From assembly GCA_947499635.1 (NCBI GenBank), contig CANMPD010000005.1, forward strand, positions 165,728-229,727: a stretch of 64,000 bases of DNA, given 5' to 3'. Shown here in pieces: positions 5,473 to 43,809 of this stretch. Numbering within the stretch: the stretch's first letter is position 1; each line of letters begins with the position of its first letter. The DNA comes from an uncultured Paracoccaceae bacterium (GTDB lineage: Bacteria > Pseudomonadota > Alphaproteobacteria > Rhodobacterales > Rhodobacteraceae). The position numbers and the translations under genes are program-made. The notes below the pieces were generated by a model. It searched no databases. It was not told where the DNA came from and saw only the letters and a list, made by a program, of their open reading frames with translations.

Positions 5473-5482
5473 TAAACCTTGT

Positions 5483-5513
5483 GTCGGGGCGGCGTTTTGT
5501 GGCCCCGACTTTT
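5483..5513 (+). terminator. Hairpin with U-run between hmuR and hmuS
   Basis: GTCGGGGC (5483-5490) pairs perfectly with GCCCCGAC (5502-5509) across an 11-nt loop, followed directly by TTTTA. It resembles an intrinsic terminator or attenuator and would lower transcription of hmuSTUV relative to the receptor gene. Confidence 0.6.
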
Positions 5514-5534
5514 ATGTCTAAAGGAAATGCGGCA

Positions 5535-6596
5535 ATGACCGATATAATTTCAGCACAAGCCATTCGAAGTGCCAAGGCGGAAAACCCAAAACAACGGGAT
5601 CGGGATTTGGCGCAGAGCCTTGGGATTACCGAGGCGCAATTGGTTGCTGCCCATATGGGTAATCATGATGGCCAACAGGTGACACGGATCAACCCACATC
5701 CTGATCAGTTGATGCCAGCGGCATCGCGCTTGGGCGAAGTTATGGCACTGACCCGAAACGCCAGCGCGGTTCACGAGCGCGTGGGTACCTATGAAAAATA
5801 TCGTTCTGGCCCCCATGCTTCGGTGGTTCTGGGCAAGGAAATTGACCTGCGTATTTTCCCGCGCCATTGGGTGCACGGGTTTGCGATCGAGCAGGAGACC
5901 GACAAAGGTATCCGCCGAACTTTGCAGGTGTTTGACGCTGCAGGGGATGCAGTGCATAAGATTTTTCTACGCGATGCGTCCAACCATGACGCTTGGGCTG
6001 ATGTCGTCCGTGATTTGACGGTCGAGGATCAGTCTGAAGCGATTTCTGTTGAGCCGCGTAAACCAACTGAGGCTGCTAAACGTAACCCCAAAAAGCGGGA
6101 TATTCTGCTCGAAGAATGGGCGAAAATGACCGATACGCATCAATTTATGCGATTGACGTCGAAACTGGGGATGAACCGTTTGGGTGCCTACCGTGAGGTT
6201 TCCGGCACAAAGTGGGTGCGTCCGATTGACCCAAGCAGCATGGCTGACTTCTTTGAAAAGATGGGTCAAAGCGGTCAAGAAACAATTTTGTTTGTTGGCA
6301 ATATGGGCAACATTCAAATTCACTGGGGCCCGCTTGAGACCATCAAACCTATGGGGCCATGGCTGAACGTGATGGATCCGCGTTTTAATCTGCATCTGCG
6401 TGGCGATCATGTGGCTGAGGTTTATCAAATCATCAAACCGACAAAACGCGGGGATGCGATCTCGCTTGAGATGTTCGATGCCGAGGGCATGATCATTGCG
6501 CAGATCTTTGGTAACCGCACCGATGAGGATGATGATTTGGCGCAGTGGAAGTCCATTTTGGCCAGCCTGCCTGACGTTGAAAAGGAACTCGCATGA
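5535..6596 (+). CDS. hmuS: Hemin-degrading / heme-trafficking factor
   Basis: This is a cytoplasmic heme-handling protein of the HemS/ChuS/HmuS family, which accepts imported heme and in some members degrades it. The ATG at 5535 is preferred (353 residues). It has AAGGA at 5521 as ribosome binding site, whereas the longer reading frame from 5481 begins inside the hairpin. Two related halves are visible, as in the family: VMALTRNASAVHERVGTYEK near the N-terminus and KMTDTHQFMRLTSKLGMNR in the second half, and FPRHWVHGFAIEQE versus NLHLRGDHVAEVY. The stop overlaps the hmuT start (ATGA). Confidence 0.9.
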   Translation: MTDIISAQAIRSAKAENPKQRDRDLAQSLGITEAQLVAAHMGNHDGQQVTRINPHPDQLMPAASRLGEVMALTRNASAVHERVGTYEKYRSGPHASVVLGKEIDLRIFPRHWVHGFAIEQETDKGIRRTLQVFDAAGDAVHKIFLRDASNHDAWADVVRDLTVEDQSEAISVEPRKPTEAAKRNPKKRDILLEEWAKMTDTHQFMRLTSKLGMNRLGAYREVSGTKWVRPIDPSSMADFFEKMGQSGQETILFVGNMGNIQIHWGPLETIKPMGPWLNVMDPRFNLHLRGDHVAEVYQIIKPTKRGDAISLEMFDAEGMIIAQIFGNRTDEDDDLAQWKSILASLPDVEKELA

Positions 6597-7438
6597 TCCG
6601 GAATTTTGTTTTTGCGCTGGCCTTGGCTGCCAGCAGTGCGCAAGCTGACACTGAGGCAAAGGCCGTGGTCAGCATTGGCGGGCCTGTGACTGAAATCATC
6701 TATGCTTTGGGTGAGCAGGATCGCATTGTCGCGCGCGACACCACATCCGTTTACCCGCCGGCTGCGAATGAGCTGCCGGATGTCGGGTATATGCGCGCAC
6801 TGTCTGCAGAGGGCGTGCTGTCTGTTGGGCCGGATTTGATTTTGGCCCGTGACACGGCTGGCCCGCCAGAGGCGTTAGATCAGCTTAAGGCGGCGTCGGT
6901 TCCTATGGTTTTGACCCATGATGCCTTTACCGCACAGGCCGTAGTGGATGCGATCACTGTTGTGGGACATGCTTTGGGCGTTGACGATAAGGCGCAGGAT
7001 CTCGTGGCCAAGGTCAGCGGTGAGTTGGACAGTCTGGCACATGATGTTGCGGCATTAACCGACAAACGCAAGGTGATGTTTATTCTATCTCTGGACGGCG
7101 GGCGCATGAATGTTGCGGGCGCAGGCACGGGTGCGGACGGGATAATTTCGCTGGCTGGTGGGCAAAACGTGATGGCACAAGCCTACGAGGGCTATAAGTT
7201 AGTCAGCTCAGAGGCTGTCATCGAAGCGGCACCGGATTTGATCATCATGATGAGCAATGCTGGCGATCACAGTGGACGTAAAGACGAAGTGCTGGCCCTT
7301 GCGCCAATCAAGTTGACACCAGCAGGGGAAACCGGCGGGTTTGCGACGGTTCCCGGAGCGGCGTTGGGATTTGGACCACGCACCGCGACTTTTGCGCGCG
7401 ATTTGCATGACGTCTTATACGGGGCCGCGCAGCAATAA
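6593..7438 (+). CDS. hmuT: Periplasmic hemin-binding protein
   Basis: This is the solute-binding component of the heme ABC importer. It has 281 residues with a signal peptide (FVFALALAASSAQA, cleavage about residue 18). The class III binding-protein fold follows: VVSIGGPVTEIIYALGEQDRIVARD at the start of the mature protein, a central helix, and a C-terminal lobe with the GATVPGAALGFGPR-like segment. It overlaps hmuS by 4 bp and its stop is joined to the hmuU ATG, so the genes are translationally coupled. Confidence 0.9.
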   Translation: MIRNFVFALALAASSAQADTEAKAVVSIGGPVTEIIYALGEQDRIVARDTTSVYPPAANELPDVGYMRALSAEGVLSVGPDLILARDTAGPPEALDQLKAASVPMVLTHDAFTAQAVVDAITVVGHALGVDDKAQDLVAKVSGELDSLAHDVAALTDKRKVMFILSLDGGRMNVAGAGTGADGIISLAGGQNVMAQAYEGYKLVSSEAVIEAAPDLIIMMSNAGDHSGRKDEVLALAPIKLTPAGETGGFATVPGAALGFGPRTATFARDLHDVLYGAAQQ

Positions 7439-8505
7439 TGATACTCAGCGCATATATCCCTAAACCAGATATCGCAGGTGATCGCCGCTATTTGGCCTTG
7501 ATGCTGCGCCTTGTTTTGATTGCGGCATTGTTCGTGACGTGTTTGCTCAGCCTTGGCTGGGGCGCGGCGCGTGACAGTGATGTCATCGGAGCTTTGCTGG
7601 GGTGGTCGGATGTATCGCTGCGGGATCAGGTGATTGTTTGGGACATTCGCATGCCGCGTATGCTGACCGGCGTTGTGGTTGGCGCTGCGCTGGCGGTATC
7701 TGGTGCCGTAATGCAGGGTTTGTTTCGCAATCCTTTGGCTGATCCTGGATTAATCGGGATCAGTGCTGGTGCCGGATTTGGCGCTGTCGCTGCGATTGTA
7801 TTGGGCGGGTTATTACCTGTGGCAGTGCAGGCGTTTGTCGGGTCATACTTGGTGCCGATTGCGGCATTCTTTGGCGGCTGGATCTCCACCATTGTGCTGT
7901 ATAAAATTGCCACACGTGGTGGACGGACTTCGGTTGCGACAATGTTGCTGGCTGGGATCGCCTTGGGTGCGCTTATGGGCGCGGTGACGGGGTTAATGGT
8001 CTATTCTGCCGATGATGACCAGTTACGAGACCTGACGTTTTGGGGCATGGGATCTTTGGCTGGGGCGACGTGGGCCAAGTTGATTATAGCTGGCCCGCTG
8101 ATTGTTGCGACATTGGTGGTGACGCCGTTTCTTGCGCGGTCTTTGAATGCCTTGGCGCTAGGGGAAAATACGGCGGCGCATTTAGGTATCAACGTGCAAC
8201 GTATGAAAAACATTGCGATTTTGACGGTCGCAGGCAGTGTTGGCGCGTCTGTGGCCATAACAGGTGGCATTGGCTTTATCGGTATTGTTGTGCCTCATTT
8301 GTTACGGCTGGTCCAAGGGCCGGATCATCGTGGGCTCTTGGTTAATGCAGCACTTTTAGGCGCGGTAATTTTACTTATCGCTGATGGTGTGTCACGGACA
8401 GTGATTGCACCGGCTGAGCTACCGATCGGGATTATCACAGCGGCGATGGGTGGACCGTTCTTTTTATGGATTTTGCTGCGTAGCCGTGGAGTCATTGATC
8501 TATGA
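7438..8505 (+). CDS. hmuU: Hemin ABC transporter permease (FecCD family)
   Basis: This is an inner-membrane permease that passes heme from HmuT into the cytoplasm. It has 355 residues with about nine or ten hydrophobic helices. It shows the FecCD hallmarks IRMPRMLTGVVVGAALAVSG (about 71-90), NPLADPGLIGISAGAGFGA (about 99-117) and the C-terminal GGIGFIGIVVPHLLRL, which contacts the ATPase. The first base of its ATG is the last base of the hmuT stop, and its 3' end overlaps hmuV by 4 bp. Confidence 0.93.
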   Translation: MILSAYIPKPDIAGDRRYLALMLRLVLIAALFVTCLLSLGWGAARDSDVIGALLGWSDVSLRDQVIVWDIRMPRMLTGVVVGAALAVSGAVMQGLFRNPLADPGLIGISAGAGFGAVAAIVLGGLLPVAVQAFVGSYLVPIAAFFGGWISTIVLYKIATRGGRTSVATMLLAGIALGALMGAVTGLMVYSADDDQLRDLTFWGMGSLAGATWAKLIIAGPLIVATLVVTPFLARSLNALALGENTAAHLGINVQRMKNIAILTVAGSVGASVAITGGIGFIGIVVPHLLRLVQGPDHRGLLVNAALLGAVILLIADGVSRTVIAPAELPIGIITAAMGGPFFLWILLRSRGVIDL

Positions 8506-9299
8506 GCCAGTTGAATGCCCAAAACATCACGGTTCATATCGCCAAAACACAGGTTTTGCACGGAGTGGACTTCAGCGCAAAGGCAGGCGAGGTCACAGCG
8601 ATTGTCGGACCTAATGGCTGTGGGAAAACCACATTACTTCGCGCGGTGACCGGTGAATTGCCTTATGGTGGGCAGGTTCATCTGAATGGTGTGGATGTGG
8701 CAACGCAAAGTCCACAGATTTTGGCGCGGATGCGTGGCGTCTTACCGCAAGCGACGGCGCTTTCGTTTCCGTTCACGGTGCTAGAGGTCGTTCAATTGGG
8801 GCTGACCGCAGGTCTGGCAACGACCTCACTTCAAAACGGTGCGCATCTGCCGCAACAGGCATTGGCGCGCGTGGGTTTGGCCGGATTTGAGGGACGTTTT
8901 TACCAAGAGCTGTCTGGCGGTGAAAAGCAACGTGTGCAGTTGGCACGTGTGTTGTTGCAGGTTTGGCAACCGGTTCTAGAAGGTCAGCCGCGTTGGTTGT
9001 TTCTGGACGAGCCTGTCTCGGCCCTGGATATTGGACATCAGCTACAAGTGATGAAAATTGCGCGTGATTTTGCTGACGATGGCGGTGGCGTCGTGGCAGT
9101 GATGCATGATTTGAACCTGACCGCGATGTTTGCCCATTCCATGACCCTGATGCGGGCCGGACGTGTGTTACGGGTGGGCCGCCCACATGAGGTCATGACG
9201 AATACGGCGCTTAGCGCAGCTTATGACTGTCAAATTTCTGTCAACCAACCCCCAGCCGCAGGGCTGCCGTGGCTGCTGCCACAGGCGGCGACCTTGTAG
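8502..9299 (+). CDS. hmuV: Hemin ABC transporter ATP-binding protein
   Basis: This is the cytoplasmic ATPase of the heme importer. Of 265 residues, the Walker A GPNGCGKT is at about 36-43, the signature LSGGE at 137-141 and the Walker B WLFLDE at 165-170, with the switch His in VAVMHDLNLT. It overlaps hmuU by 4 bp and completes hmuSTUV. It is followed after 66 bp by a small exported protein gene and then the ExbB/ExbD/TonB genes, all in the same direction. Confidence 0.93.
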   Translation: MSQLNAQNITVHIAKTQVLHGVDFSAKAGEVTAIVGPNGCGKTTLLRAVTGELPYGGQVHLNGVDVATQSPQILARMRGVLPQATALSFPFTVLEVVQLGLTAGLATTSLQNGAHLPQQALARVGLAGFEGRFYQELSGGEKQRVQLARVLLQVWQPVLEGQPRWLFLDEPVSALDIGHQLQVMKIARDFADDGGGVVAVMHDLNLTAMFAHSMTLMRAGRVLRVGRPHEVMTNTALSAAYDCQISVNQPPAAGLPWLLPQAATL

Positions 9300-10718: not shown

Positions 10719-11119
10719 GACGCAGACTGACCACGAAACGGATTCAATCTGAACCGACGTTACCGTTGATCAATATCGTCTTTTTGATGCTGATCTTTTT
10801 CCTTGTGGCTGCGCAGTTATCCCGTCCGCTTGAAGGTGATTTGCAACTGGTGCACACGGATGATCCTGAATTGATCCCGCCACCGGATGCGCTGATTTTG
10901 ATGCAAGACGGGCAATTGATGTTCCGTGGCAGCGAGGCCGTAGCCGAAGATGTGATTGCAACCCTGCGTGCGGATGCGCCCGGGCAGGAGGCAGGTTTAA
11001 CTTTGCGATTGCTGCCAGATCAGCGGGCTAAGGCGCATGATGTGATGGACACGGCGGCTGCCCTGCGCGGCGCTGGTGCAGATGCAGTATTTATTGTGAC
11101 GCAGAGGGCATTAAAATGA
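10715..11119 (+). CDS. exbD: ExbD/TolR-type protein, second copy
   Basis: This second, divergent ExbD-like protein has 134 residues. It carries the basic N-terminus RRRLTTKRI and a membrane helix PLINIVFLMLIFFLVAAQL. Here the canonical membrane Asp of ExbD (LIDVIF in the first copy) is replaced by Asn (LINIVF), so it may not carry protons itself. The periplasmic domain is similar in size to the first copy. It overlaps both neighbours by 4 bp. Two ExbD paralogs in tandem suggest a hetero-oligomeric stator. Confidence 0.87.
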   Translation: MRRRLTTKRIQSEPTLPLINIVFLMLIFFLVAAQLSRPLEGDLQLVHTDDPELIPPPDALILMQDGQLMFRGSEAVAEDVIATLRADAPGQEAGLTLRLLPDQRAKAHDVMDTAAALRGAGADAVFIVTQRALK

Positions 11120-12024
11120 AATCACGTGTCTGGATTTTGGTGGCGGCCCTTGGAACATCCGCGGCGGCACATGTTGGGTTGGCTGGTCTGTCATGGCAAC
11201 CCAATGACGCGGTTTTGGATGGTGGGGCTCTTGCTGGGGCAGCCTCTTTGGGCAGCAGTTTTGCAGATCTTGTTGCGTATATTCCCGAGAGCCCAAAAGT
11301 ATCGGCTGTTTCGACACTTATGCCGACATCGGTGACCGAAATATCTGCGACGGCTTTGGCAACTGTCGAAGCGGTGGATCATGTCGTCACCACGCAAATT
11401 GCGGCAACGCAGATTGAAACGAAATTGGCCACGCTAACCCCTGCACCTGTACAGCCGTTGGTGACGGTGACCCGTGCCAAGGTGACCGCAGCACGGCCTT
11501 TGACGTCAACACAGGCCTCTACATCTGTGCTTCCGCCTGTACGCCCTCAGACGCGTGTAGAGCCTGTGCCGCAAGAGGAACCTGTTGCTAAGCCTAAGCC
11601 ACAAAAGAAAAAGACGCCTGCAAAAAAGCAGGTGGCGGCCAAATCACAACGGGGTAATGCGACGGCCAATGCACGGCGTGGCAGTCAAGATGCCGAGCAG
11701 GTCGCCCCCAATGGTGGTGGGACCGGAGCCACTGAAACAACGGCCAAACAGGCAGGCAATGGGGCGTTGAAATCTTATAAAACGGCTGTTTTGCGCAAAG
11801 TGTCGCGGACCCGTGCACGCAGTGCGGGCGGGCGTGGCAGTGTACATGTGAGCCTTCGTATTTCTGCGGCGGGTGCTGTAAGCGGAGTTACTGTGGCCAA
11901 AAGTTCGGGCAACACACGTGTGGACCGCGCAGCGCTTGCCAAAGTCTCTGGTGCGGGGAATTTTGGCGCAACACCAAATGGGCAGGCCGTGCGCTATACC
12001 ATCAAGGTTGACGTTAAAGGGTGA
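11116..12024 (+). CDS. tonB: TonB-type energy transducer
   Basis: This protein spans the periplasm and transmits energy to the heme receptor. It has 302 residues: an N-terminal membrane anchor (VWILVAALGTSAAAHVGLAGL), a Pro/Ala/Thr-rich central spacer, and a Lys/Pro-rich stretch (KPKPQKKKTPAKK, about 160-172). The C-terminal TonB domain (KVSRTRARSAGGRGSVHVSL, then AVSGVTVAKSSGNTRVDRAAL) ends at YTIKVDVKG. It is the last gene of the hmu-exb run and its 3' end overlaps the convergent DUF4386 gene by 11 bp. Confidence 0.88.
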   Translation: MKSRVWILVAALGTSAAAHVGLAGLSWQPNDAVLDGGALAGAASLGSSFADLVAYIPESPKVSAVSTLMPTSVTEISATALATVEAVDHVVTTQIAATQIETKLATLTPAPVQPLVTVTRAKVTAARPLTSTQASTSVLPPVRPQTRVEPVPQEEPVAKPKPQKKKTPAKKQVAAKSQRGNATANARRGSQDAEQVAPNGGGTGATETTAKQAGNGALKSYKTAVLRKVSRTRARSAGGRGSVHVSLRISAAGAVSGVTVAKSSGNTRVDRAALAKVSGAGNFGATPNGQAVRYTIKVDVKG

Positions 12025-32642: not shown

Positions 32643-33440
32643 TCAGTCCCACATCGCATGAAAATGATGGACTGGGCCGTGACCGGCGCCGATATCCAAC
32701 TGATCGGCTGCTCTGATCGCTGCATGCAGGTATCTATGGGCCTGCGTGACGGCCTCTACAAGGCTGAGCCCCTTGGCCAGGTTGGCGGCAATTGCGGCGG
32801 AATAGGTGCAGCCGGTCCCATGGGTGTTACGCGTTGCGATACGGGGTGCACTGAGCGCGGTTGTGCCCTGTGCGTCTAGCAACAGGTCTGTGCAGGTCTC
32901 ACTTGTGCCATGACCGCCTTTTATCAATACGGCCTTAGCGCCCATGGCTTGCAAAGCGGTTGCTTGGGCTGTGTTGGCGGTTTCCGATTGGGTGTCTTGA
33001 TGACTGAGCAGAGCAGCAGCCTCGGGTAGGTTGGGTGTTAAGAGATCTGCCAATGGCAGGATATGCTCTTTCATTGCTGCTATCGCAGTTTCTTGCAGCA
33101 GGGCATCGCCAGATTTGGCGATCATTACCGGGTCAACAACCACTGGGCCGTCAAACCCTCGTAAGGCATCAGCGACACAGGTGATAATTTCAGGAGAGAA
33201 GAGCATGCCGATCTTGATGGCGTCGGGTTTTATGTCTGACAACACAGCTCTGATCTGGGCGTGTACGACATTGGTGGGAATTTCATGCAGGGCTGTCACT
33301 GAGGTGGTATTTTGCGCGGTGACCACGGTCAGTACAGATGCGCCAAAAACACCGTTTGCACTGAACGCTTTTAGATCGGCTTGAATGCCCGCACCGCCGC
33401 CGCTGTCGGATCCTGCGATTGTGAGTGCTTTTGCTACCAT
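32643..33440 (-). CDS. thiD: Hydroxymethylpyrimidine/phosphomethylpyrimidine kinase
   Basis: ThiD phosphorylates HMP twice to HMP-pyrophosphate. It has 265 residues from the ATG at 33440 (MVAKALTIAGSDSGGGAGIQ); the open frame extends upstream into the riboswitch leader and is not used. Motifs are AGSDSGGGAGIQADLKAF at about 8-25, VVDPVMIAKSGDALL and NTHGTGCTYSAAIAANLA. It is the first gene after the TPP riboswitch. Confidence 0.93.
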   Translation of the reverse strand: MVAKALTIAGSDSGGGAGIQADLKAFSANGVFGASVLTVVTAQNTTSVTALHEIPTNVVHAQIRAVLSDIKPDAIKIGMLFSPEIITCVADALRGFDGPVVVDPVMIAKSGDALLQETAIAAMKEHILPLADLLTPNLPEAAALLSHQDTQSETANTAQATALQAMGAKAVLIKGGHGTSETCTDLLLDAQGTTALSAPRIATRNTHGTGCTYSAAIAANLAKGLSLVEAVTQAHRYLHAAIRAADQLDIGAGHGPVHHFHAMWD

Positions 33441-33519
33441 TGCCCACGGCCTTTTCGTTGCTGCGGGCGTAACGATGGTGGAAAGCGGGCGTAGGTGCAG
33501 CATGTGCACAAGACAAATA

Positions 33520-33605
33520 TGACCCGTTCCCTCCGCCGGTATTGCCCGGATCAGGTTCGACGGGTCGATGCATGCATCTCTCAGCCCAAGGGCACCCCGA
33601 CGGAT
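33520..33605 (-). ncRNA. TPP riboswitch (THI element)
   Basis: Read on the minus strand, the leader contains the thi-box elements in order: GGGGTGCC, CTGAGA, then ACCCGTCGAACCTGATC followed by CGGGCAATACCGGCGGAGGGA. This is the conserved TPP-binding aptamer. It lies about 80 nt upstream of the thiD ATG. Thiamine pyrophosphate binding should lower expression of the downstream ten-gene operon; whether by translation or transcription is not clear. Confidence 0.95.
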
Positions 33606-33675
33606 TTGTTTAATGCTAAACAAAATATATCGCGGGCACAAGGGCTGCGTGGTGTTGGGTGTTTATTCATGTGTG

Positions 33676-33719: not shown

Positions 33720-35324
33720 TTAGGTGCTGTGTTCCGCCATGACATCGTCCAACCAGCCGATGCGCATTTCTGGGATCGAGGTCAACAACTTGTCTGTATA
33801 GGCATCAAACGGTGGGTTCAGTACCTGACGTTTGGGGCCGTAACGTACCAAGTTCCCTTGGTGCATGACTGCGATAGAGTCCGCAATGGCTTTGACCGTG
33901 GCCAAATCGTGGGTGATGAACAAATAGGCCACGCCTTCGCGCTCTTGCAGGTCAGCAAGTAGCTTGAGGATGCCTTCGGCGACGAGGGGGTCTAGGGCAC
34001 TGGTGACCTCGTCGCAGATGATCACTTTGGGTTTTGCAGCCAAGGCCCGCGCAATACAGACACGTTGTTTTTGGCCACCGGATAGCTCAGCCGGATAACG
34101 ATCTGCGAAATCCACAGGCAGCTCGATGGCGTGTAGCAGTTCTTCAATACGCGCCTGTCGTTTTGCGCCCCTTAGACCAAAGTAAAAGGTTAGGGGACGG
34201 CCGATGATTTGACCCACAGTCTGGCGCGGGTTCATGGCGACATCTGCCATTTGATAGATCATCTGGATCTCGCGCAGTTGTTCGCGGGATCGTTGGGTTT
34301 GTTTCGGCGGAAGTGGCGTATTTTCAAAGACGACATTCCCGATACGCGGGGGCAAAAGACCGGTGACCACGCGCGCGAGTGTTGATTTCCCCGAGCCAGA
34401 CTCGCCAACGATGGCCAGCGTATGGCCAGGATCGAGAGACATGTTGATTGATTTCAAAATGTCGATCTTGCCGTAGCCCGCTGTGACATTGCTGATGTCT
34501 AAGACAGGTTTCTCCGTTGCGGGTTTTTCTTCGTGTTGTGCCGAGCGCACCGATAAAAGTGCTTTGGTATAGTCTTGTTGAGGGTCGTTGATAATCTGAT
34601 CAGTCGTGCCTTTTTCCACCATTTCGCCGTGGCGCAGCACCATGATTTCATCCGAGATCTGCGCCACAACGGCCAAATCATGGGTAATATAAAGTGCGGC
34701 GACATTGGTGATTTTGATGGCGTGCTTGATGGCTGCCAGAACTTCGATCTGGGTGGTGACATCCAGTGCGGTCGTGGGTTCGTCAAATACGATCAGATCA
34801 GGTTTAGGACACAGAGCCATGGCGGTCATAACCCGCTGCAACTGTCCGCCTGATACTTGGTGCGGATAGCGATCACCGATGGTTTCGGGCGAAGGCAGGC
34901 CAAGGGCTGTGAACAGCTCGACCGCACGGGTGCGTGCCTCATGTGCTGACATAAGACCGTGTTCCAATGTGGCCTCGATCACCTGATCAATCAGTTTGTG
35001 TGCAGGATTGAACGAGGCGGCGGCGGATTGGGCAACATAGCAGACTTCCTTGCCGCGCAATTGGTTTAAGACACCGCGTTTTGCTTGTGCGATATCGCGA
35101 CCATTCAAGATCACCTGACCCGCACTGGTGTGCAGCTTCCCGCGTCCATAACCCATAGCGGACATACCGATGGTGGATTTCCCCGCCCCGGATTCCCCAA
35201 TGAGGCCCATTACCTTGCCTTTTTCCAGATCAAAGGAGACGCCTTTGACGATTTTGAGCAAAGGTGATGTGCCTTCGACGGCGATTTCCAGATCGCGAAT
35301 TTTCAGGAGTGTTTCGTCAGACAT
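33720..35324 (-). CDS. Dipeptide-type ABC transporter, fused double ATP-binding protein
   Basis: This single 534-residue protein combines the two ATPases (DppD- and DppF-like) of a peptide-type importer. The first domain has Walker [10 protein letters not shown] at about 42-50 and the signature SGGQLQR. The second has GESGSGKST near 310 and [15 protein letters not shown]. Each half has its own Walker B (LIVFDEP; VIICDEV). It overlaps the DppC-like gene by 8 bp. The operon also holds a binding protein, two permeases and a CocE-type hydrolase. Confidence 0.92.
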
Positions 35325-36138
35325 CTTTGCCTCCCTTTAGGCTGCTGGTCAGGTTCAACACCCAGTCGGCAATCATGTTGATTGAAATAGCAAGCACTGC
35401 GATGGCACCAGCGGGGATCAGAGCCGCGGGAATACCAAAGGCAATACCGTCCTTGTTTTCTTTGACCATACCACCCCAGTCTGCTGCAGGTGGTTGAATG
35501 CCAAGACCAAGGAAGGAGAGCGCTGATAGAAACAGCACCATGAAAATAAAGCGCAAACCAAGTTCTGCGACCAGTGGTGACAAAGCGTTCGGCAGGATTT
35601 CACGGAAAATCACCCAAAGGCGGCCTTCGCCGCGTAGACGCGCAGCTTCGACAAAGTCCATTACAGCGATATCAACCCCAACAGAGCGCACCAGTCGAAA
35701 GACGCGCGTGCTGTCTAGGACGCCCATAACAACCACAAGCGTGAGCACGCTGGGCGCCAGAACGGATAGGATGACCAGCGCAAGGATCAGTGTAGGAATC
35801 GCCATAAGTAGATCGACAAGACGCGAGAGAGTTTGGTCGATCCAACCTCCAAAGGCAGCCGCAGACAGGCCGAGCATCGTGCCCATGCTAAAGGACAAGA
35901 TCGTGGCCAGTGCCGCAATCCCTAAAGTGACGCGGGCACCGTACATCAGCCGGCTGAGCAAATCACGGCCCAGGGTATCTGTGCCCAGCCAGTGCTCTGA
36001 GGACATGGGTTCCCAGACGTCCCCGACAATTTCTGTCATGGAGTAGGGGGCAAGGAGGGGGGCAAACACGGCCATGATCACAATGGTTGCCGTTATGATC
36101 ATCCCGATAAGGGCATTGAGAGGAATAGAAGTTTTCAT
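35317..36138 (-). CDS. Peptide-type ABC transporter permease (DppC family)
   Basis: This is an inner-membrane permease of 273 residues with five to six helices. Motifs are EHWLGTDTLGRDLLSRLMYGAR (split across about 48-69), the EAA-loop DFVEAARLRGEGRLWVIFREILPN, and the C-terminal ADWGGMVKEN typical of DppC/OppC. It lies 10 bp after the DppB-like gene and overlaps the ATPase gene. Confidence 0.92.
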   Translation of the reverse strand: MKTSIPLNALIGMIITATIVIMAVFAPLLAPYSMTEIVGDVWEPMSSEHWLGTDTLGRDLLSRLMYGARVTLGIAALATILSFSMGTMLGLSAAAFGGWIDQTLSRLVDLLMAIPTLILALVILSVLAPSVLTLVVVMGVLDSTRVFRLVRSVGVDIAVMDFVEAARLRGEGRLWVIFREILPNALSPLVAELGLRFIFMVLFLSALSFLGLGIQPPAADWGGMVKENKDGIAFGIPAALIPAGAIAVLAISINMIADWVLNLTSSLKGGKDV

Positions 36139-36148
36139 TGTGTCGCCC

Positions 36149-37108
36149 TTACTTTGGATGCCGCAGGCGCGGATTGGTGAGCAGGGCAGTGATGTCGGCC
36201 ACTAAATTGAGGCCAATAAAAATGGCGGCAAAGATCAGTCCACAGGCCTGAACCACAGGGATGTCACGTTTTGAGACGTGGTCGACCAGATACTGTCCAA
36301 GGCCGGGATAGACAAAGATAACCTCTATCACCACCACACCCACGATCAGATATGCAAGGTTCAGCATCACCACATTGACAATGGGCGCAATCGCATTGGG
36401 GAGGGCATGGCGGTAAATGATCTTGAATGATGACAGCCCCTTAAGCTCCGCAGTTTCGATATAGGCGGATTCCATCACGTTTAAGATTGCAGCGCGCGTC
36501 ATACGCATCATATGCGCCAGAACCACTAAGGTTAGGGCCATCGCAGGAAGGGCCATCGCGTTGAGGCGGGCAAAAAATCCCATGCCATCGTAAACTGAGG
36601 CCACCGAGGGAAAGAGTGGAATATTCACAGCGAAGATTAGGATCAGTACGTAGCCGATGAAAAATTCGGGTAAAGAAATAGAGGCCAGGGTGGTGGCGGA
36701 AATGAGTTTATCGGGCCAGCGGTCACGATAACGTACGGCCAATAAACCAAGAAAAATAGCTAAAGGTACGGACATCACGGCTGCAAATGCCGCTAGGAAC
36801 AGGGTGTTTATCAAACGCGATGTCATTGACTCTGCAATGTCACGACCATTGGTGAGCGCCGTTCCGAGGTCGCCTTGTATAATGCCACCTGCCCAGCTGA
36901 GATAACGACTGAGCGCGGGGTCGTTCAGGCCCATTTCAGTCCGTAGATTTTCCAAGGCTTCGGGGGTTGCAGATTGGCCTAGAATGTTCTGCGCGACGTC
37001 GCCAGGCAGAATTTCAGTGCCGATAAAGATCACTACGGACACGGCCCACAGGATCAAGAGGCTCAGCGCAAGGCGCTGAGCTATCATCTTTATCAGATCA
37101 GATGGCAT
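36149..37108 (-). CDS. Peptide-type ABC transporter permease (DppB family)
   Basis: This is the partner permease of 319 residues. It has an N-terminal helix (LALSLLILWAVSVVIFIGTEILPGD) split around residues 12-36, the DppB segment LSRYLSWAGGIIQGDLGTAL, and the EAA loop YIETAELKGLSSFKIIYRHALPN. The C-terminus holds VIEVIFVYPGLGQYLVDHV. It lies 4 bp after the binding-protein gene. Confidence 0.92.
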   Translation of the reverse strand: MPSDLIKMIAQRLALSLLILWAVSVVIFIGTEILPGDVAQNILGQSATPEALENLRTEMGLNDPALSRYLSWAGGIIQGDLGTALTNGRDIAESMTSRLINTLFLAAFAAVMSVPLAIFLGLLAVRYRDRWPDKLISATTLASISLPEFFIGYVLILIFAVNIPLFPSVASVYDGMGFFARLNAMALPAMALTLVVLAHMMRMTRAAILNVMESAYIETAELKGLSSFKIIYRHALPNAIAPIVNVVMLNLAYLIVGVVVIEVIFVYPGLGQYLVDHVSKRDIPVVQACGLIFAAIFIGLNLVADITALLTNPRLRHPK

Positions 37109-37112
37109 GGTG

Positions 37113-38699
37113 TTAGGCTTTCAACCAACACTTGATGGTTGCCATACCATTCATCATGGTTTGAGCTGGATCATCGTACCAGCCTTCCACTTCGCTGCGT
37201 GTGCCTTCAACCCAGTTTGCGAACATTGGGATCATGGCGCCACCTTCGTTGTTCACCATTACACTCATGTCGCGGTACAGACTTGTACGGGCCTCTGGAT
37301 TTGTTTCTACGCGTGCTGCAAGCAGTTTCGCGTCGAAATCGTCACGACGGAAATTGGTGTCATTCCAGTCTGCTGTTGACAGATATGCAGTGGAGTACAT
37401 CGCATCTTGCGTTGGACGACCACCCCAATAAGAGGTGCAGAACGGCTGTTTGTTCCAAACTTCAGACCAGTAACCGTCGTTTGGTTCACGCTTGATTTCG
37501 ATCTGAATACCAGCGGCTTGTGCGGATTGTTGGAACAGCTGCGCTGCGTCAACCGCACCGGGGAAAGACCCATCTGCAGTGCGCAGGACGATTGGGCCAT
37601 CATGACCAGAGGCTTTATAGTGTGCAGCCGCCTTTTCGGGATCATAAGTCCGCTGTTCGATGTCGCCAGAGAACAAAGGATACGCGCTATTGATTGGCGT
37701 GTCGTTCCCGACGCTGCCGTGACCGAATAGGATGCTGTCGACCATTTGCTGGCGGTCGATTGCATATTTCAGTGCAAGGCGCAGGTCGTTGTTGTCAAAC
37801 GGCGCTGTGTCACAGAACATGTTGAACACATAATGCCCGGGTCCGCCGGCTGAGTGGATGTCGATTTGTGGATGACGCTCAATCAGACCCGCAATCTTTG
37901 GTGGCACGCGGTTGGCAATATGAACCTGACCGGATTGCAGCGCGGCGATGCGGGCGGTGTCGTCGGCAATAACCAGCAGTTCAACAGCATCGACATGACC
38001 ACGGCTGTCATCCCAGTAATCGGCGAATTTTTCGAAGGTATAGCGAACGCCATGGTCAGCCTGAACAACTTTGTATGGGCCAGTACCGATGCCTGCGTCT
38101 GGGGCATCTAGGCCGCCGTTCGGCTGGATAACCAGGTGATAATCGGCCAGAAGATATGGTAGATCTGCGTTCCCATCCGCGAGAGTAATGACGACTTTGC
38201 CATCAACATCTTCGATGGTGTCGATACCGCGTAGAATACCTAGGGCACCTGATTGAGACGTCTCGTCGGCGTGGCGGCGCAGAGTGGCAACAACATCTGA
38301 CGCCGCTAGGGTGGCACCATTGTGGAAGGAAATGCCTTCGCGGATTGTAAAGGTCCAGACCTTTGCATCCGCTGAGGATTCAATCGCTGAGGCCAGGCGC
38401 ATAACGAGACTGCCGTCGACGTCTACTTCTACCAGGTAGTCGCCAAAATGTTTAAGAACAACAAGTGTCGTGTCATTGGTTGAGCGTGCAGGATCAAGGC
38501 TGTCAGTGGATTGACCACCAGAGATTGCCACTTTGAACGTGCCGCCTTTTTGCGGGGTCGCGGCGCGAGCAGCAGTACCGAGGAAGCTGCCTGCCATTGC
38601 GGTGGAGGCACCTAGCGCAGCAGCGCGAGACATAAACGCGCGACGGTTCAGCGCACCTGATGCAGCCATGGCGGCCAGTTGCTTGAGATCTTTAGTCAT
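37113..38699 (-). CDS. Periplasmic peptide-type binding protein (SBP family 5)
   Basis: This 528-residue family 5 extracellular solute-binding protein determines the specificity of the importer. The N-terminus carries a likely Tat-type signal (LNRRAFMSRAAALGASTA, cleavage near AARA). The signature LASAIESSADAKVWTFTIREGISFHNG is near residues 101-127. Substrate is unknown; pairing with a CocE-type hydrolase suggests a peptide, ester or modified amino acid. Confidence 0.9.
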   Translation of the reverse strand: MTKDLKQLAAMAASGALNRRAFMSRAAALGASTAMAGSFLGTAARAATPQKGGTFKVAISGGQSTDSLDPARSTNDTTLVVLKHFGDYLVEVDVDGSLVMRLASAIESSADAKVWTFTIREGISFHNGATLAASDVVATLRRHADETSQSGALGILRGIDTIEDVDGKVVITLADGNADLPYLLADYHLVIQPNGGLDAPDAGIGTGPYKVVQADHGVRYTFEKFADYWDDSRGHVDAVELLVIADDTARIAALQSGQVHIANRVPPKIAGLIERHPQIDIHSAGGPGHYVFNMFCDTAPFDNNDLRLALKYAIDRQQMVDSILFGHGSVGNDTPINSAYPLFSGDIEQRTYDPEKAAAHYKASGHDGPIVLRTADGSFPGAVDAAQLFQQSAQAAGIQIEIKREPNDGYWSEVWNKQPFCTSYWGGRPTQDAMYSTAYLSTADWNDTNFRRDDFDAKLLAARVETNPEARTSLYRDMSVMVNNEGGAMIPMFANWVEGTRSEVEGWYDDPAQTMMNGMATIKCWLKA

Positions 38700-38725
38700 T
38701 GAGTGACTCCCTGAAGTCTATTTTA

Positions 38726-40762
38726 TTATTCATTGGTCTGTGCGGATTTTTCATCTGGGGCGCGACGGATTTTGTCTTGAAAGATTGTCTCATGGACAAG
38801 GGTGTCTCCGTCCCAGGCTTTGAGGGTTTGATGAACCACAAAGTGGTCTTTTTGCCCCCACATGCGCGCAACCGTTTGGGTGCGTACATCAAATGGAATG
38901 TCTGTTTCACTGCGGCCAAGAGTGCGGTCCCATGTCATCTCAACATAAGCCGAGGCCGGGTCGTTTGGTGTTATGCTCCATGTTTCGGACATTGCACTAT
39001 GGATAGTCAAGCCATTCTCGAGATCTTGAACGATGCCGTGATTGCCTGCGATGTTTAGGGTGATTTTGCCCGTTTCATCAGAAATTTCACGTGTTTTCAT
39101 CTCGGTAGGCGATTGTAAGGTTTTATAGGGTCGCGCCTTTGTTTGCGTGGGGGCTGCAAAGCTACAGGTTTTGGGGGTTGGTGAGCCACTGTAGCGCGGT
39201 AAGCTCAGTGTGCCGGCGGTTAACCTGAGTGAAAAAGCGCGACCTTCGGGCCAGCAATAGGGCCAATAGCTATTGGATATCGAAAGGCGCAACTTGTGAC
39301 CGGCGGGCAAACGATATGCGCAATGATCTAGCGTGATGGTGACCTGATAGGGTTGGTCGGGAGCCAAATCACATGCGTTGTCAAATCCGTCGCGATGGCG
39401 CAAGTTTAGGAGCCCAAGACTGATTAGCGCTGAGGTGCCATCAGGGGCCACATCGCACAGACGCAGGATAATCTGCGCATGAGGCTGGTCGCTTGCAACG
39501 GTGAGTGTGGCACTGGGAGACCCCAGCAAAGTCCAGTCCTGATCCAGAGGGGTGCTGTCAAAACAGGACGATATGGTATCATCGTGGTGTTGGTTGTCTG
39601 GTAGTTCACCGGGGCCAAAGCCAAAGGGGAAGTACTCGCCGCTATTGCGGCCACAGGCCAAGTCACCGGTGACTTCGATGTCAAAAGCTGCGGCTTGGTC
39701 TTGTAAGCAATGCGCTGCTAGGGACAGGGTCGTCTGGGTGATGTCAGGGGATGGCCATTGATCAAAGGCCAACCATGTGCCCGGGCGATGATCTAGGCTG
39801 GGATGTGGTGGTACACTGTCCATTACGTATGCGCGATAGGCAGGGTCTTGGTCTGCCCCGTTGTCAATATTTTTCAACCAGCGATCCCACCAACGCAGGG
39901 CGATACCAAAATAGTCGATCGCAGGACTGATCGGACTGACATGTGGGTACTTGTGGCCCCAGGGTCCAGCGATTCCCTGCACCGGTGCAGATAAATTTTC
40001 GGTTAGATGTGCCATGGTATTGCGATAGCCATCTTGCAATCCACCAATCGCAAGCGTGGTGGCCTTGATTGATGAATAATCTTCGCACACCGAGCCATGT
40101 TCCCAATAGGCGTCACGATTGCTGTGGGTGATCCACTTTTTCGCAAGATTTGGCGTGTTTTTCAATCTCTCTAGCCAGATGTCACGCCAGTTCTCGCCGA
40201 CAAGATCAGGATCTGGAGGGGTAGACAACCAAGACATAGCTGTCGCGGCCCAGCCGATATTTTCACCTAACTGAATGCCGCCTTTATAATGGATGTCATC
40301 GGCAAACCGATCAACGGTAGACCCGATGGTGATCACTGCTTTAAGCGCATCAGGTGCCCGGGCCGCAATTTGTAGCCCGTTAAACCCACCCCAGGAGATG
40401 CCTTGGATGCCAACGGCCCCGCTGCACCATGACTGGGAGGCGATCCAGTTGATGATCTCAACCCCGTCGTCAATCTCTTCGAGCGAGTATTCGTCATCAA
40501 ACAAACCGGTACTGTCGCCACATCCACGTCGATCAACGCGCATGCTGACATAGCCGTGTTCAGCAAAATGCAAGTGCATCGCATGATCACGCGCAGCTGT
40601 GCCATCCGTTTTGCGGTAGGGAAGGTATTCCAGTATTGCAGGCAAAGGTGTTGAATGTGCAGTTTCCGGCATCCAAACACGGGCGGAAAGAACGGTATCA
40701 TCCGACAGAGGAATTCTCATGTCTGGTATGATTGTAACGTCTTGATTCTTAGTGCCGGTCAC
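38726..40762 (-). CDS. CocE/NonD-family hydrolase (X-Pro dipeptidyl peptidase S15-like)
   Basis: This serine hydrolase of 678 residues has the alpha/beta-hydrolase domain of the CocE/PepX family. MRVDRRGCGDSTG at about 75-87 is followed by the nucleophile motif GIQGISWGGFNGLQ at about 119-132. A C-terminal jelly-roll domain lies about 420-560. The start is a GTG at 40762 with GGGGAG 10 nt upstream; the ATG at 40720 lacks a ribosome binding site. No export signal is seen, so it probably acts on the imported substrate in the cytoplasm. It leads the transporter operon, 26 bp before the binding protein. It may cleave esters, amides or proline-containing peptides. Confidence 0.85.
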   Translation of the reverse strand: MTGTKNQDVTIIPDMRIPLSDDTVLSARVWMPETAHSTPLPAILEYLPYRKTDGTAARDHAMHLHFAEHGYVSMRVDRRGCGDSTGLFDDEYSLEEIDDGVEIINWIASQSWCSGAVGIQGISWGGFNGLQIAARAPDALKAVITIGSTVDRFADDIHYKGGIQLGENIGWAATAMSWLSTPPDPDLVGENWRDIWLERLKNTPNLAKKWITHSNRDAYWEHGSVCEDYSSIKATTLAIGGLQDGYRNTMAHLTENLSAPVQGIAGPWGHKYPHVSPISPAIDYFGIALRWWDRWLKNIDNGADQDPAYRAYVMDSVPPHPSLDHRPGTWLAFDQWPSPDITQTTLSLAAHCLQDQAAAFDIEVTGDLACGRNSGEYFPFGFGPGELPDNQHHDDTISSCFDSTPLDQDWTLLGSPSATLTVASDQPHAQIILRLCDVAPDGTSALISLGLLNLRHRDGFDNACDLAPDQPYQVTITLDHCAYRLPAGHKLRLSISNSYWPYCWPEGRAFSLRLTAGTLSLPRYSGSPTPKTCSFAAPTQTKARPYKTLQSPTEMKTREISDETGKITLNIAGNHGIVQDLENGLTIHSAMSETWSITPNDPASAYVEMTWDRTLGRSETDIPFDVRTQTVARMWGQKDHFVVHQTLKAWDGDTLVHETIFQDKIRRAPDEKSAQTNE

Positions 40763-40992: not shown

Positions 40993-43584
40993 CTATTGCA
41001 CCTGACGTGGGTTTAACGCCTGGCCCGAGAGATTGGGCCGAAACGTGATATGTGACAGCATTCGCAAAGCATGCGCAGCCAATAGACCCAGAAGGATACC
41101 GCCAAAAATCGCTACAATATCTGTCTGTAGAGGGCTGAGTGTAACATCTATCTGGGCTAAGATATTTGGCATGATGCTTTCCGGCACGAAACGGTGCAGC
41201 AGGTAAATTGGAAAGGCGCCCTGCGCGACGAGTGTGATTGTGCGGGTCAACCATCTAGAGGTGCTGATGTGCGGCAACTGGATGTGAGATACTGATAAAA
41301 GCAGGCCACACAGTGCCAAGAGGCTCATGTATTTGACCCATCCACCGTACCAATTGCCACCCAGATAAGCAGCCATTGGCATAATCACAGAGGCAGCCGC
41401 GATAACAACCAATCGCTGGGTCAGTGTTTGTGCAGTGGTGATGCACCAACCAAGAGCAAAGAGGTAAAAGACCCATGGTACGGAAAACTGTGATCGCCCA
41501 CTGCGTATAGGCCAAATTTCGGGGATCACAACACGCATAACGATGGCAAGTGCCAACAGGGCTAAGCCTACGACAAAGGGATTTTTGGCAAGAGCTGAGC
41601 GTGCGAATGGCAAAGTGAACAGGAGCAGAATAAGCACGGTCATCTGCATATAGGCTTCGACGAACCAGTATAGATAAGGCAGCATGAGGTGGGTTTCTGG
41701 TGACGTCACACCGAAATTTCCGATCAAAAAGACCGAGGCCCACGGGACCTGTTGCCAGGCCAGCGCATAACCCGCAACAATTGCGAAATAAGGCCATAAA
41801 ACACGCAACGTCGGCTGTAGAAATGGCCAAATTTGTCCTTGGACCAATGCGCTTGTGCGATGTTCGGCGACGCTCATTCCTAAGAGGATCACCATAGCAG
41901 CTGCGCCGCCATAGACGGGTAGGCTGGTTTGGTGGGCAACAACAACGGCAATGATCGCGAGGGCGCGTGCCAGGATCGGCATCGGCAGGCTGGGTCGTGC
42001 AGGTTTTGCCTGCGCAAGTTGTGCGATGGACATGTGCTCCCAGCCGACGGGCAACCCTTTGAGCTGTTTCTCAAGTGTGAGTGTGAGTTCAACATGACGC
42101 AACGAGTCGCCGCCAAGGGACTTAAAACTGTCACTATGAGATACGGGCTGGGGCGCAAAAATTTGCGCAAAACTGCTTAGGATCGCAGGAGGGTCATTGG
42201 GTGTGTTGTGCGCAGAACGTGACTGGGTTTGCTGTTTAAGTTTGGGATAGTTGATTTTGCCGCTGGCGTGGCGGGGCAAGGCGTCACATGTGGTGACTGA
42301 TATATGTGACCGGCCAATCCCTGCGCGTTCTGCGGTGAGGTTTTGCAGCGTGGTGATAACGTTGCTGTCGTGATCAGGGGTATTTTGTGCGGCAACGTGG
42401 ATTGTGGCGTCATCACCCCAAACGGCAGCGTCATAGCCTGCAGTCTCTAACGCGCGTTCTAATGCATCATGGCCTATGCGAATGCCGGCGATTTTTGACA
42501 TGCGTGACAGACGACCGGTGATGCGCAGTAAGCCATTCTTGTCACGGGTGGCCAGATCGCCGGTGGCCAGTTCGGTCAGCTCATGGCCGCGTATCAGGTC
42601 GGTGGCACCTTGTGCATAACCCATCATCACGTTTGGACCGCGATAGATCAGCTCTCCTTCGTTGGGGGAGGACGCGCCAGAGGAATCGCGCAGCAGGATT
42701 TCACCTCCGGGGATAGGCTGACCAATGGAGTTCGGATGTTCCGCAGCACGAGCAGGGGGGAGATAAGCGATGCGCGCGGTGGCTTCGGTTTGGCCGTACA
42801 TCACAACAAAGCGGCCCTGTTTTTGTTCGAACCTCGTTGCCCAGCGTTGTACCGCCTCTGGAGGCATGGCGCCGCCTGCGACAGTCATGCAGGTGATGCT
42901 GTCTGGCAGCCTGTCACTTAATCCTGCGGAATCGAGCATGGCAAAATGATGCGGAACACCGGCTAGGCTAGTCGCACCCGAGTCTGCGAGTTCGGTTGCA
43001 AAGCCCTCGTCTAGGATTGAACCTTGCGCCAGCCACAGACTTGCGCCCTGCGCCAGATGCGAATGAAGCACGGATAACCCATACGAGTAATGTAGGGGCA
43101 AAATCAAAGCAGCGCGATCGGTTGGAGTGATTTCCAAGTAATTTGCGATGGCCTGTGCATTGGATTTCACGGCCTCGTGGCTAAGACGTACGCCTTTGCC
43201 TTGGCCGGTGCTCCCCGAGGTTTGTAAGACGAGTGCCAAGTCCGGATGGATCGGGGTTGGGTTGACACAAGACACAAACCGACGACGTTCGGCGAGTGTG
43301 CGAAAAGCGGCTGCAGGACGAAACCGGTTAATCAATGCGCTGCTGAGTGTGGTGCTGCAGGTGGGCAAGGGCATCACCGCGTGCCCGGCACTGAGGGCGG
43401 CAAGGTAGGCAGCGATTGCTTCGATGCTTGCGTCCATTTCAACGGCGATCAGACCGCGTTGTTTGGGAAGCCGGTGGGTCATCTGTTCTATACGATCTGC
43501 GAGCTCGGCATAGGTGAGCACCGTATCGCGGGTTATCAAACATGGGTTGTCCGCAAAGTCGCGCAAATTCGATAAACTGAACAC
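40993..43584 (-). CDS. Adenylation-carrier-membrane acyltransferase fusion protein
   Basis: This unusual 863-residue fusion joins three domains. Residues about 1-450 form an AMP-binding/adenylation domain with QTSGSTGQGKG (121-131), VMYGQTEAT (261-269), LATGDLATRD, GRLSRMSKIAG and the catalytic Lys443 in ASGKINYPK. Residues about 465-530 form a carrier domain with the phosphopantetheine site LGGDSL (Ser494). From about 535 there is an acyltransferase-3-like membrane region of about ten helices, beginning ARALAIIAVVVAHQTSLP. The likely chemistry is activation of a carboxylic acid, loading onto the carrier, and transfer across or at the membrane to an unknown acceptor. It stands alone on the minus strand. 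Substrate and acceptor are unknown. Confidence 0.85.
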   Translation of the reverse strand: MFSLSNLRDFADNPCLITRDTVLTYAELADRIEQMTHRLPKQRGLIAVEMDASIEAIAAYLAALSAGHAVMPLPTCSTTLSSALINRFRPAAAFRTLAERRRFVSCVNPTPIHPDLALVLQTSGSTGQGKGVRLSHEAVKSNAQAIANYLEITPTDRAALILPLHYSYGLSVLHSHLAQGASLWLAQGSILDEGFATELADSGATSLAGVPHHFAMLDSAGLSDRLPDSITCMTVAGGAMPPEAVQRWATRFEQKQGRFVVMYGQTEATARIAYLPPARAAEHPNSIGQPIPGGEILLRDSSGASSPNEGELIYRGPNVMMGYAQGATDLIRGHELTELATGDLATRDKNGLLRITGRLSRMSKIAGIRIGHDALERALETAGYDAAVWGDDATIHVAAQNTPDHDSNVITTLQNLTAERAGIGRSHISVTTCDALPRHASGKINYPKLKQQTQSRSAHNTPNDPPAILSSFAQIFAPQPVSHSDSFKSLGGDSLRHVELTLTLEKQLKGLPVGWEHMSIAQLAQAKPARPSLPMPILARALAIIAVVVAHQTSLPVYGGAAAMVILLGMSVAEHRTSALVQGQIWPFLQPTLRVLWPYFAIVAGYALAWQQVPWASVFLIGNFGVTSPETHLMLPYLYWFVEAYMQMTVLILLLFTLPFARSALAKNPFVVGLALLALAIVMRVVIPEIWPIRSGRSQFSVPWVFYLFALGWCITTAQTLTQRLVVIAAASVIMPMAAYLGGNWYGGWVKYMSLLALCGLLLSVSHIQLPHISTSRWLTRTITLVAQGAFPIYLLHRFVPESIMPNILAQIDVTLSPLQTDIVAIFGGILLGLLAAHALRMLSHITFRPNLSGQALNPRQVQ

Positions 43585-43772
43585 AAGTATTCCCCTAATA
43601 TTTAGGAAGCTGGGTATAGTTCATGATAATTTTTGTAAAGTATTTGCGGATTCATTTTTTTCACAGTTTTTTGAAGTGTGCCAGATACTGGCTATCGATT
43701 TGGGAAACCCTCTTGTGCGCCTGATATTTGTGCAAAAATAGATTTTCATCTTGTAAATTTGAGCAATTCAAG

Positions 43773-43794
43773 TAATTATGCAATTGTATAATTA
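43773..43794. promoter_or_regulatory. Candidate TetR operator
   Basis: This 22-bp inverted repeat has arms TAATTAT and ATAATTA around GCAATTGT, with one mismatched pair in the inner part. It lies 15 bp upstream of the TetR-family ATG, in a 225-bp AT-rich gap after the divergent fusion gene. Its position suggests autoregulation of the tetR-transaminase-decarboxylase operon. Confidence 0.5.
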
Positions 43795-43809
43795 AGTGGA
43801 GTAAGTGCT

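Follow-up and report, generated by a model that had tools for sequence, protein, structure and literature searches.

The subject of this work is one gene in the window, the whole stretch of 64,000 nucleotides analysed here, which comes from contig CANMPD010000005.1 of an uncultured Paracoccaceae bacterium. Judged from its sequence, the encoded protein of 863 residues is a fusion of adenylation (A), carrier and membrane domains in one chain, with conserved catalytic residues (Table 1). The original prediction had described a single reading frame of this length without giving a strand. The frame is open on the minus strand from 43584 down to 40993, while the same stretch read in plus-strand frame 1 is riddled with stops.

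Table 1. Features of the fusion gene and of other parts of the window discussed in the text; positions are those of the window.
Feature	Positions	Strand	Remarks
A + carrier + TmAT/AT3-like membrane protein, 863 residues	40993..43584	minus	GTG start 43584, stop 40993-40995
Adenylation domain, residues 1-455	42220..43584	minus	model aligned to solved adenylating enzymes
Carrier (thiolation) domain, residues ~465-528	42001..42192	minus	Pfam PP-binding 20.6 bits; 34/48 members at E ≤ 0.001
Membrane domain, residues 532-846, predicted TmAT/AT3 fold, ~ten helices	41047..41991	minus	
Ser167, aligned to VinN Asp230	43084..43086	minus	Ser 65, Cys 22, Ala 2 in 89 members; Asp in none
Arg271, aligned to VinN Arg331	42772..42774	minus	invariant, 89/89
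Lys443, aligned to EntE Lys477	42256..42258	minus	invariant, 89/89
Ser494 in LGGDSL, predicted phosphopantetheine attachment site	42103..42105	minus	invariant, 89/89
Arg540-X10-His551, AT3 signature of transmembrane helix 1	41932..41967	minus	both residues invariant, 89/89; motif from passages of PMC9833829
Intergenic region, divergent TetR gene on its other side	43585..43809		best RirA-like site 7/10
Oligopeptide-type ABC transporter and S15-type peptidase genes	33720-40762	minus	directly downstream of the fusion gene
Phosphomethylpyrimidine (thiamine-type) kinase gene	32643-33641		
Heme-uptake-like locus	3466-9299	plus	
TonB C-terminal protein	11116-12024		after the heme-uptake-like locus

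The adenylation motifs named in the original prediction are confirmed by the AMP-binding profile of Pfam, which gives 160.2 bits against a cut-off of 29.9. The PP-binding score stays 0.2 bits under its cut-off of 20.8, which is exceeded by the carriers of two relatives (loci L055 and L081), and the Acyl_transf_3 (PF01757) score of 19.0 bits lies below the cut-off of 31, which L055 passes with 41.7 bits. Because of this last score, we call the window protein TmAT/AT3-like and not a canonical AT3 member. Across 48 members of the family, matches at E ≤ 0.001 were obtained to AMP-binding in 48, to Acyl_transf_3 in 38 and to PP-binding in 34. Residue conservation was counted over 89 aligned family members. 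The invariant residues include Lys443, which is aligned to Lys477 of EntE, a residue that we take to be the catalytic lysine of adenylating enzymes, as well as Ser494 in LGGDSL, already picked out in the original prediction as the carrier serine.

The membrane domain was modelled as about ten long helices and is predicted to have the TmAT fold. This agrees with the ten or so helices and the AT3-like start that had been noted before, as do the conserved Arg540 and His551. The full-length model has a mean predicted local distance difference test (pLDDT) score of 91.0 and a predicted template modelling (pTM) score of 0.62; in view of the latter value, no claim is made on the relative placement of the domains. 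A second look with VIA at the membrane model gave structural matches to HGSNAT and GWT1, and two of its top ten rows are titled merely 'membrane proteins'. Furthermore, the domain shows homology to an AT3 protein that belongs to a split version and passes the Pfam AT3 cut-off.

The adenylation pocket was read against VinN. For residues 112-295, VinN chains are the sole PDB sequences matched at E ≤ 1e-12; for the whole protein, LgrA scores above VinN among solved chains. The matches of the adenylation-domain model include DltA structures and 7wew, the A domain of Pls. According to passages of PMC7756342, PMC12186527 and PMC11253843, VinN activates the β-carboxyl of 3-methylaspartate, with Asp230 taken as the amine binder and Ser299 and Arg331 as α-carboxylate binders, the role of Arg331 being a proposal of the first two. 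The column of Arg331 holds an invariant arginine (Arg271), that of Ser299 holds Ala236, and that of Asp230 holds Ser, Cys or Ala, never Asp. Small residues at the Asp position have been noted for hydroxy-acid enzymes in a review among the same sources. Since the carboxylate-binding Arg is kept and the amine-binding Asp is replaced, the substrate is predicted to be a dicarboxylic acid without an α-amine, hydroxylated, with malate as first choice. For the same reason an α-amino acid such as D-alanine is disfavoured, and a D-alanine-like substrate was dropped as the leading idea. The binding pocket had been named in the original prediction as a point to check, and the check thus points to a non-amino dicarboxylic acid. 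A first mapping by eye onto GrsA numbering gave the same two key pocket positions. The LgrA alignment would instead place Asp235 at Gly169; therefore, we rely on the direct alignment to VinN and on EntE. The same Arg also occurs in A domains that stand alone (L122, L123, L124 and L125). These domains adjoin two conserved genes, presumably LuxE- and LuxC-type acyl-reduction genes, and L123 and L125 add a small carrier-like gene.

The original prediction had suggested looking for the same architecture in other genomes, where it does recur. A homologue search matched 2048 of 7998 scored candidates at E ≤ 1e-3, and the 120 matches listed all have 727-900 residues and a query coverage of 85-100%, which excludes a chance origin of the architecture. 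Relatives are present in Alphaproteobacteria, Gammaproteobacteria and Actinobacteria; genera named among the listed homologues include Leisingera, Paracoccus, Mesorhizobium, Sinorhizobium, Devosia and Marinobacterium. The fusion is patchily distributed in the family and class of its host, given that a match at E ≤ 1e-60 was found in 12 of 295 sampled genomes of the family (own genome counted) and a match in 9 of 385 sampled genomes of the class, five of the latter over the A domain alone. In a FastTree tree of 92 rows, in which long branches leave some placements unsure, 35 rows form an actinobacterial clade and the window copy is grouped with other Rhodobacterales, Marinobacterium and rhizobial copies. 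Two small proteobacterial clades fall outside that of the window, one of them including a 36%-identical paralogue from the same genome, and two long Rhodobacteraceae branches attach on the actinobacterial side.

For the comparison of neighbourhoods, the best 80 loci were used, with one genome per species (35 actinobacterial and 45 other); in the underlying locus scan, a relative is encoded at 587 of 591 pattern hits. Gene calling and clustering served for a first comparison of the neighbours and tblastn for a second, and FbpA- or FbpB-like genes were counted within 4 kb of the gene for the fusion, hereafter the core. Upstream of 30 of the 35 actinobacterial cores lies a DtxR/IdeR/DmdR1-type box, with at most 6 mismatches to the 19-bp consensus taken from passages of PMC1382209. 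The same box was found before 17 of 466 other genes of the actinobacterial loci (some with a common promoter region) and, among proteobacterial loci, before none of 43 cores and before 2 of 705 other genes. Moreover, among the 21 actinobacterial cores that lack a divergent FbpA gene, 16 carry the box, so that it is not merely that of the transporter. In rhizobia, TTGAC-N8-TCA precedes 19 of 23 cores compared with 5 of 410 other genes, and the looser TGA-N9-TCA precedes 20 of 23 compared with 48 of 410 controls, where many of the 23 are close relatives and hence represent fewer than 23 independent cases. The former motif fits the iron-responsive operator (IRO) box of RirA, whose consensus is TGA-N9-TCA (passages of PMC6386902 and PMC8822346). 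Taken together, these statistically strong enrichments predict control of the actinobacterial and rhizobial relatives by iron starvation. Among six other Rhodobacterales upstream regions, a RirA-like site reaches 9 of 10 fixed positions in L006, L007, L008, L009 and L044, and 8, elsewhere, in L012.

The genes next to the relatives point in the same direction. The original prediction had raised the matter of conserved neighbours: none are seen around the window copy, but genes of ferric-iron ATP-binding cassette (ABC) transporters, which had not been foreseen, recur beside its relatives. FbpA- or FbpB-like genes occur in 22 of the 35 actinobacterial loci, where they lie divergent from, upstream or downstream of the core, and in 3 of the 45 others (Rhizobium herbae, R. 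giardinii and a Mesorhizobium). When one actinobacterial and one rhizobial FbpA were compared with solved chains, the nearest chains differed, both being named as iron-binding: 7w3w, an iron-utilization periplasmic protein (E = 8.8e-78), and 1y9u, a putative iron binding protein (E = 1.4e-139). These different nearest relatives suggest that the link to an iron transporter arose more than once. A phosphonate-type naming of the FbpA-like proteins by NCBIfam was rejected, as its scores lie below the cut-offs and the PDB comparison favours iron-binding proteins. The iron connection of the fusion family is new here. In a locus of the Arthrobacter group (L052:6622-9882), frames of 280 and 803 residues stand directly upstream of the core with the iron box kept, and the latter resembles, by eye, a PqqD-type domain.

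A published expression study may bear on one of these relatives. The gene order in Ensifer aridi (L018), read by eye, is core, DinB-like gene, GST-like gene and ndk. An 885-residue S. meliloti homologue (P0111) stands among the listed matches, and since S. meliloti ndk is SMc00595, we take the S. meliloti core by synteny to be SMc00592. In the part of PMC2848241 available, SMc00592 ('hypothetical, transmembrane protein') appears in a table of the swarming section alongside heme and iron genes. Its values in the middle columns, whose headings lie outside that part, are 1.47 and 1.30, compared with 1.48/1.53 and 1.49/1.39 for hmuV and hmuT. Up to 17 genes of the swarming-specific set S36 concern iron according to the same source.

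Combining the predicted pocket, the conserved transfer residues and the iron signals of the relatives, we tentatively propose that this single protein activates a hydroxylated dicarboxylic acid, holds it and transfers it onto a hydroxyl acceptor, yielding a small acidic product for iron acquisition. In such a scheme, the distal carboxyl of a malate-like acid would be adenylated at the expense of ATP and then bound as a thioester to the phosphopantetheine on Ser494 of the protein's own carrier. The carrier would deliver the acid to the TmAT core with Arg540 and His551, where an ester bond with a hydroxyl of the acceptor would be made. If the acceptor were another malate, the product would be oligo- or polymalate, for which a transmembrane fungal polymalate synthetase offers a precedent (passages of PMC11905612). 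The parts of the scheme that we infer are the choice of malate, the acceptor, which may be the hydroxyl of a second malate, export and metal binding. A stand-alone acid-transfer machine is a plausible function of the protein, and transfer of the acid to an envelope or secreted acceptor is likewise plausible in view of the predicted TmAT fold. A bolder form of the proposal, which we regard as rather unlikely, is a one-gene siderophore system: here, a membrane-embedded synthetase would adenylate malate or a similar hydroxy-dicarboxylic acid and join it into an oligo- or polyester across the membrane by a TmAT domain that its own carrier feeds in place of CoA, and FbpABC-type transporters would harvest the ferric chelator in both Actinobacteria and Proteobacteria.

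Several observations weigh against the proposed role in iron acquisition, beginning with the window copy itself. None of its neighbours is an iron gene: on one side stand genes for an S15-type peptidase and for an oligopeptide-type ABC transporter, and on the other those for a TetR regulator and for an aminotransferase. This fits the earlier remark that no biosynthetic genes adjoin it. The neighbours are also not conserved across the fetched loci. Only two window genes have homologues at ≥45% identity and E ≤ 1e-40 in other fetched loci. One of them, the thiamine-type kinase gene, recurs near the core in one relative, L109, at a distance of ~2 kb as against ~7 kb in the window. The lack of a conserved partner otherwise is in line with the self-contained system that had been predicted. 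The adjoining transporter and peptidase genes were not found near relatives. The best RirA-like site upstream agrees with the motif at 7 of 10 fixed positions, a score that 958 of 2000 random 190-bp pieces of the window reach or exceed; at this chance level, the site is no evidence of iron control of the window copy. A motif common to the window upstream region and to the fbpA and TonB-receptor genes of its own genome was no better than those of six shuffles. Iron control of the window copy is therefore something we infer from the relatives alone. Among these, a ferric transporter gene is missing within 4 kb of the core at 24 of 27 rhizobial loci.

The protein itself adds further points of this kind. 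EntE, an aryl-acid enzyme, likewise lacks the Asp, and the β13-β14 loop of VinN is one residue shorter than that of the window protein, which tempers a firm reading of the pocket. For the membrane domain, Foldseek with the isolated model found no match at E ≤ 0.001, and an hmmsearch of PDB sequences with its profile gave no hit up to E = 1. By hhalign, the profile gave 4.6% over 30 columns with one stand-alone AT3 protein, which adjoins the core in L051. The R-x-x-R that AT3 proteins have at the start of transmembrane helix 3 (TMH3) is missing from the corresponding 20-residue stretch of the window copy. At the aligned TMH3 columns it occurs in 0 of 55 members and in another register in 30 of 55, so this result depends on the alignment. 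We do not take the loss of this motif as proof of feeding by a carrier instead of coenzyme A (CoA): its register is uncertain, arginines lie close to the position in actinobacterial members, and the split AT3 partner in L120 has R-F-A-R.

The acceptor could also be a cell-surface or secreted polysaccharide decorated outside the cell, as AT3 proteins, which acylate mostly sugars (passages of PMC9558356 and PMC9833829), usually do; the iron response would then reflect a change of the surface at low iron. Fusion relatives in two clades outside that of the window (L115 on contig C14 of the own genome, which is the 36%-identical paralogue, L051 and L040) lie, by eye, among polysaccharide-like genes, a further point against the iron-acquisition proposal and the reason why an envelope acceptor stays a rival. 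At L115, these neighbours include Wzz-type, tyrosine-kinase-type and glycosyltransferase frames and an AT3 gene confirmed by Pfam. However, no conserved glycan genes were seen around the clade of the window or the actinobacterial clade, and the recurrent partner is a ferric transporter. We consider this explanation possible, though improbable; the out-of-clade relatives may use the same acid on sugars.

Another possibility, which appears unlikely, is that other enzymes of the cell make a siderophore, which this protein then acylates or modifies in some other way. The iron boxes and the ferric transporter link in relatives would suit such a role equally. On contig C9 of the own genome, a stretch of ~31 kb at ~101.7-132.7 kb (L005, L003, L134 and L139) contains genes for a member of the phosphopantetheinyl transferase family, for another adenylating enzyme and for a TonB receptor, together with a 2360-residue frame of the size of a nonribosomal peptide synthetase (NRPS) that matches the A and carrier part; this stretch is possibly an ordinary siderophore cluster. 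However, no siderophore synthetase was recognised by eye among the three genes on each side of the core in 19 loci. L047 has a polyketide-synthase-like frame ~4 kb from the core, and L036 has a further acyl-CoA-ligase-like frame.

More doubtful is an iron-sparing or stress-related modification of lipid or cell wall without metal capture. The enzyme is membrane-bound and iron boxes by themselves do not prove uptake, but ferric ABC transporters with different FbpA types adjoin the core in two phyla. Least probable of all is a one-protein D-alanylation-like system in which an amino acid is passed to an envelope acceptor: the order of activities is that of DltA-DltC-DltB and DltA structures match the adenylation domain, but all 89 members have Ser, Cys or Ala in place of the Asp that binds the amine, and the membrane domain matches TmAT structures, from which, according to passages of an AT3 paper, the DltB fold is clearly distinct. 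Of the original prediction, the union of three domains in one chain holds; the membrane domain is TmAT-like, not MBOAT-like as in DltB, and the pocket disfavours D-alanine.

Elsewhere, the genome of the window has two phosphopantetheinyl transferase family genes and gave no match to a synthetase of the NRPS-independent siderophore (NIS; IucA/IucC) type. The window also contains a heme-uptake-like locus with a TonB-dependent receptor, a HemS/ChuX-type protein, a 281-residue frame, a FecCD permease and an ABC ATPase, followed by a TonB C-terminal protein.

If the proposed role in iron acquisition is true, iron-scavenging chemistry would come from one biosynthetic gene that is overlooked by searches for siderophore gene clusters. 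In addition, the passage of an acyl donor across the membrane by TmAT/AT3 enzymes would become testable in one polypeptide. Both Sinorhizobium and Streptomyces have members of the family, and deletion and low-iron growth tests are routine there. With the proposed role, the protein would also be the first TmAT/AT3 enzyme known to us that is fed by a covalently attached carrier instead of CoA. In the full-text literature searched, with most subscription journals outside its coverage, no title or abstract describing an A-carrier-AT3 fusion was found. The fusion is likewise absent from the available passages of a 2005 paper on domain architectures, and in those of three AT3 papers the terms for adenylation and carrier that were looked for do not occur, except that the phosphopantetheine of CoA is mentioned once.

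In comparison with the AT3/TmAT enzymes (OafB, OatA, HGSNAT and GWT1), the window protein shares about ten helices and the Arg-X10-His of the first transmembrane helix, and its model matches HGSNAT and GWT1; it differs in adding its own activating and carrier domains, in its Pfam AT3 score under the cut-off and in a TMH3 without R-x-x-R. With the VinN-type enzymes (VinN, BolO and AfcQ) it has the α-carboxylate-binding Arg in common, whereas Asp230 of VinN is replaced by Ser (Ser, Cys or Ala in the family), Ser299 is replaced by Ala and the loop is one residue longer. Fusions of the Aas type, acyl-ACP synthetase/acyltransferases, also unite activation and transfer in one chain; they handle fatty acids with a PlsC-type transferase domain, and the hits of the window protein to this superfamily fall far below the cut-offs. 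The DltA-DltC-DltB system has activation, carrier and membrane transfer in common with it but consists of three proteins, uses D-alanine and relies on the different MBOAT fold of DltB. The ε-poly-L-lysine synthetase Pls is a single membrane protein with A and thiolation (T) domains that makes a secreted polymer, and 7wew, the solved structure of this A domain, matches the adenylation domain of the window protein; however, Pls activates lysine and has soluble condensation-type domains. Finally, the fungal polymalate synthetase of Aureobasidium melanogenum (QHD40385.1), as described in passages of PMC11905612, is a single transmembrane protein that polymerises malate and has an adenylation-like and a carrier domain, so that its likeness to the window protein is one of described domain layout. 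Its third domain differs in being described as condensation-like.

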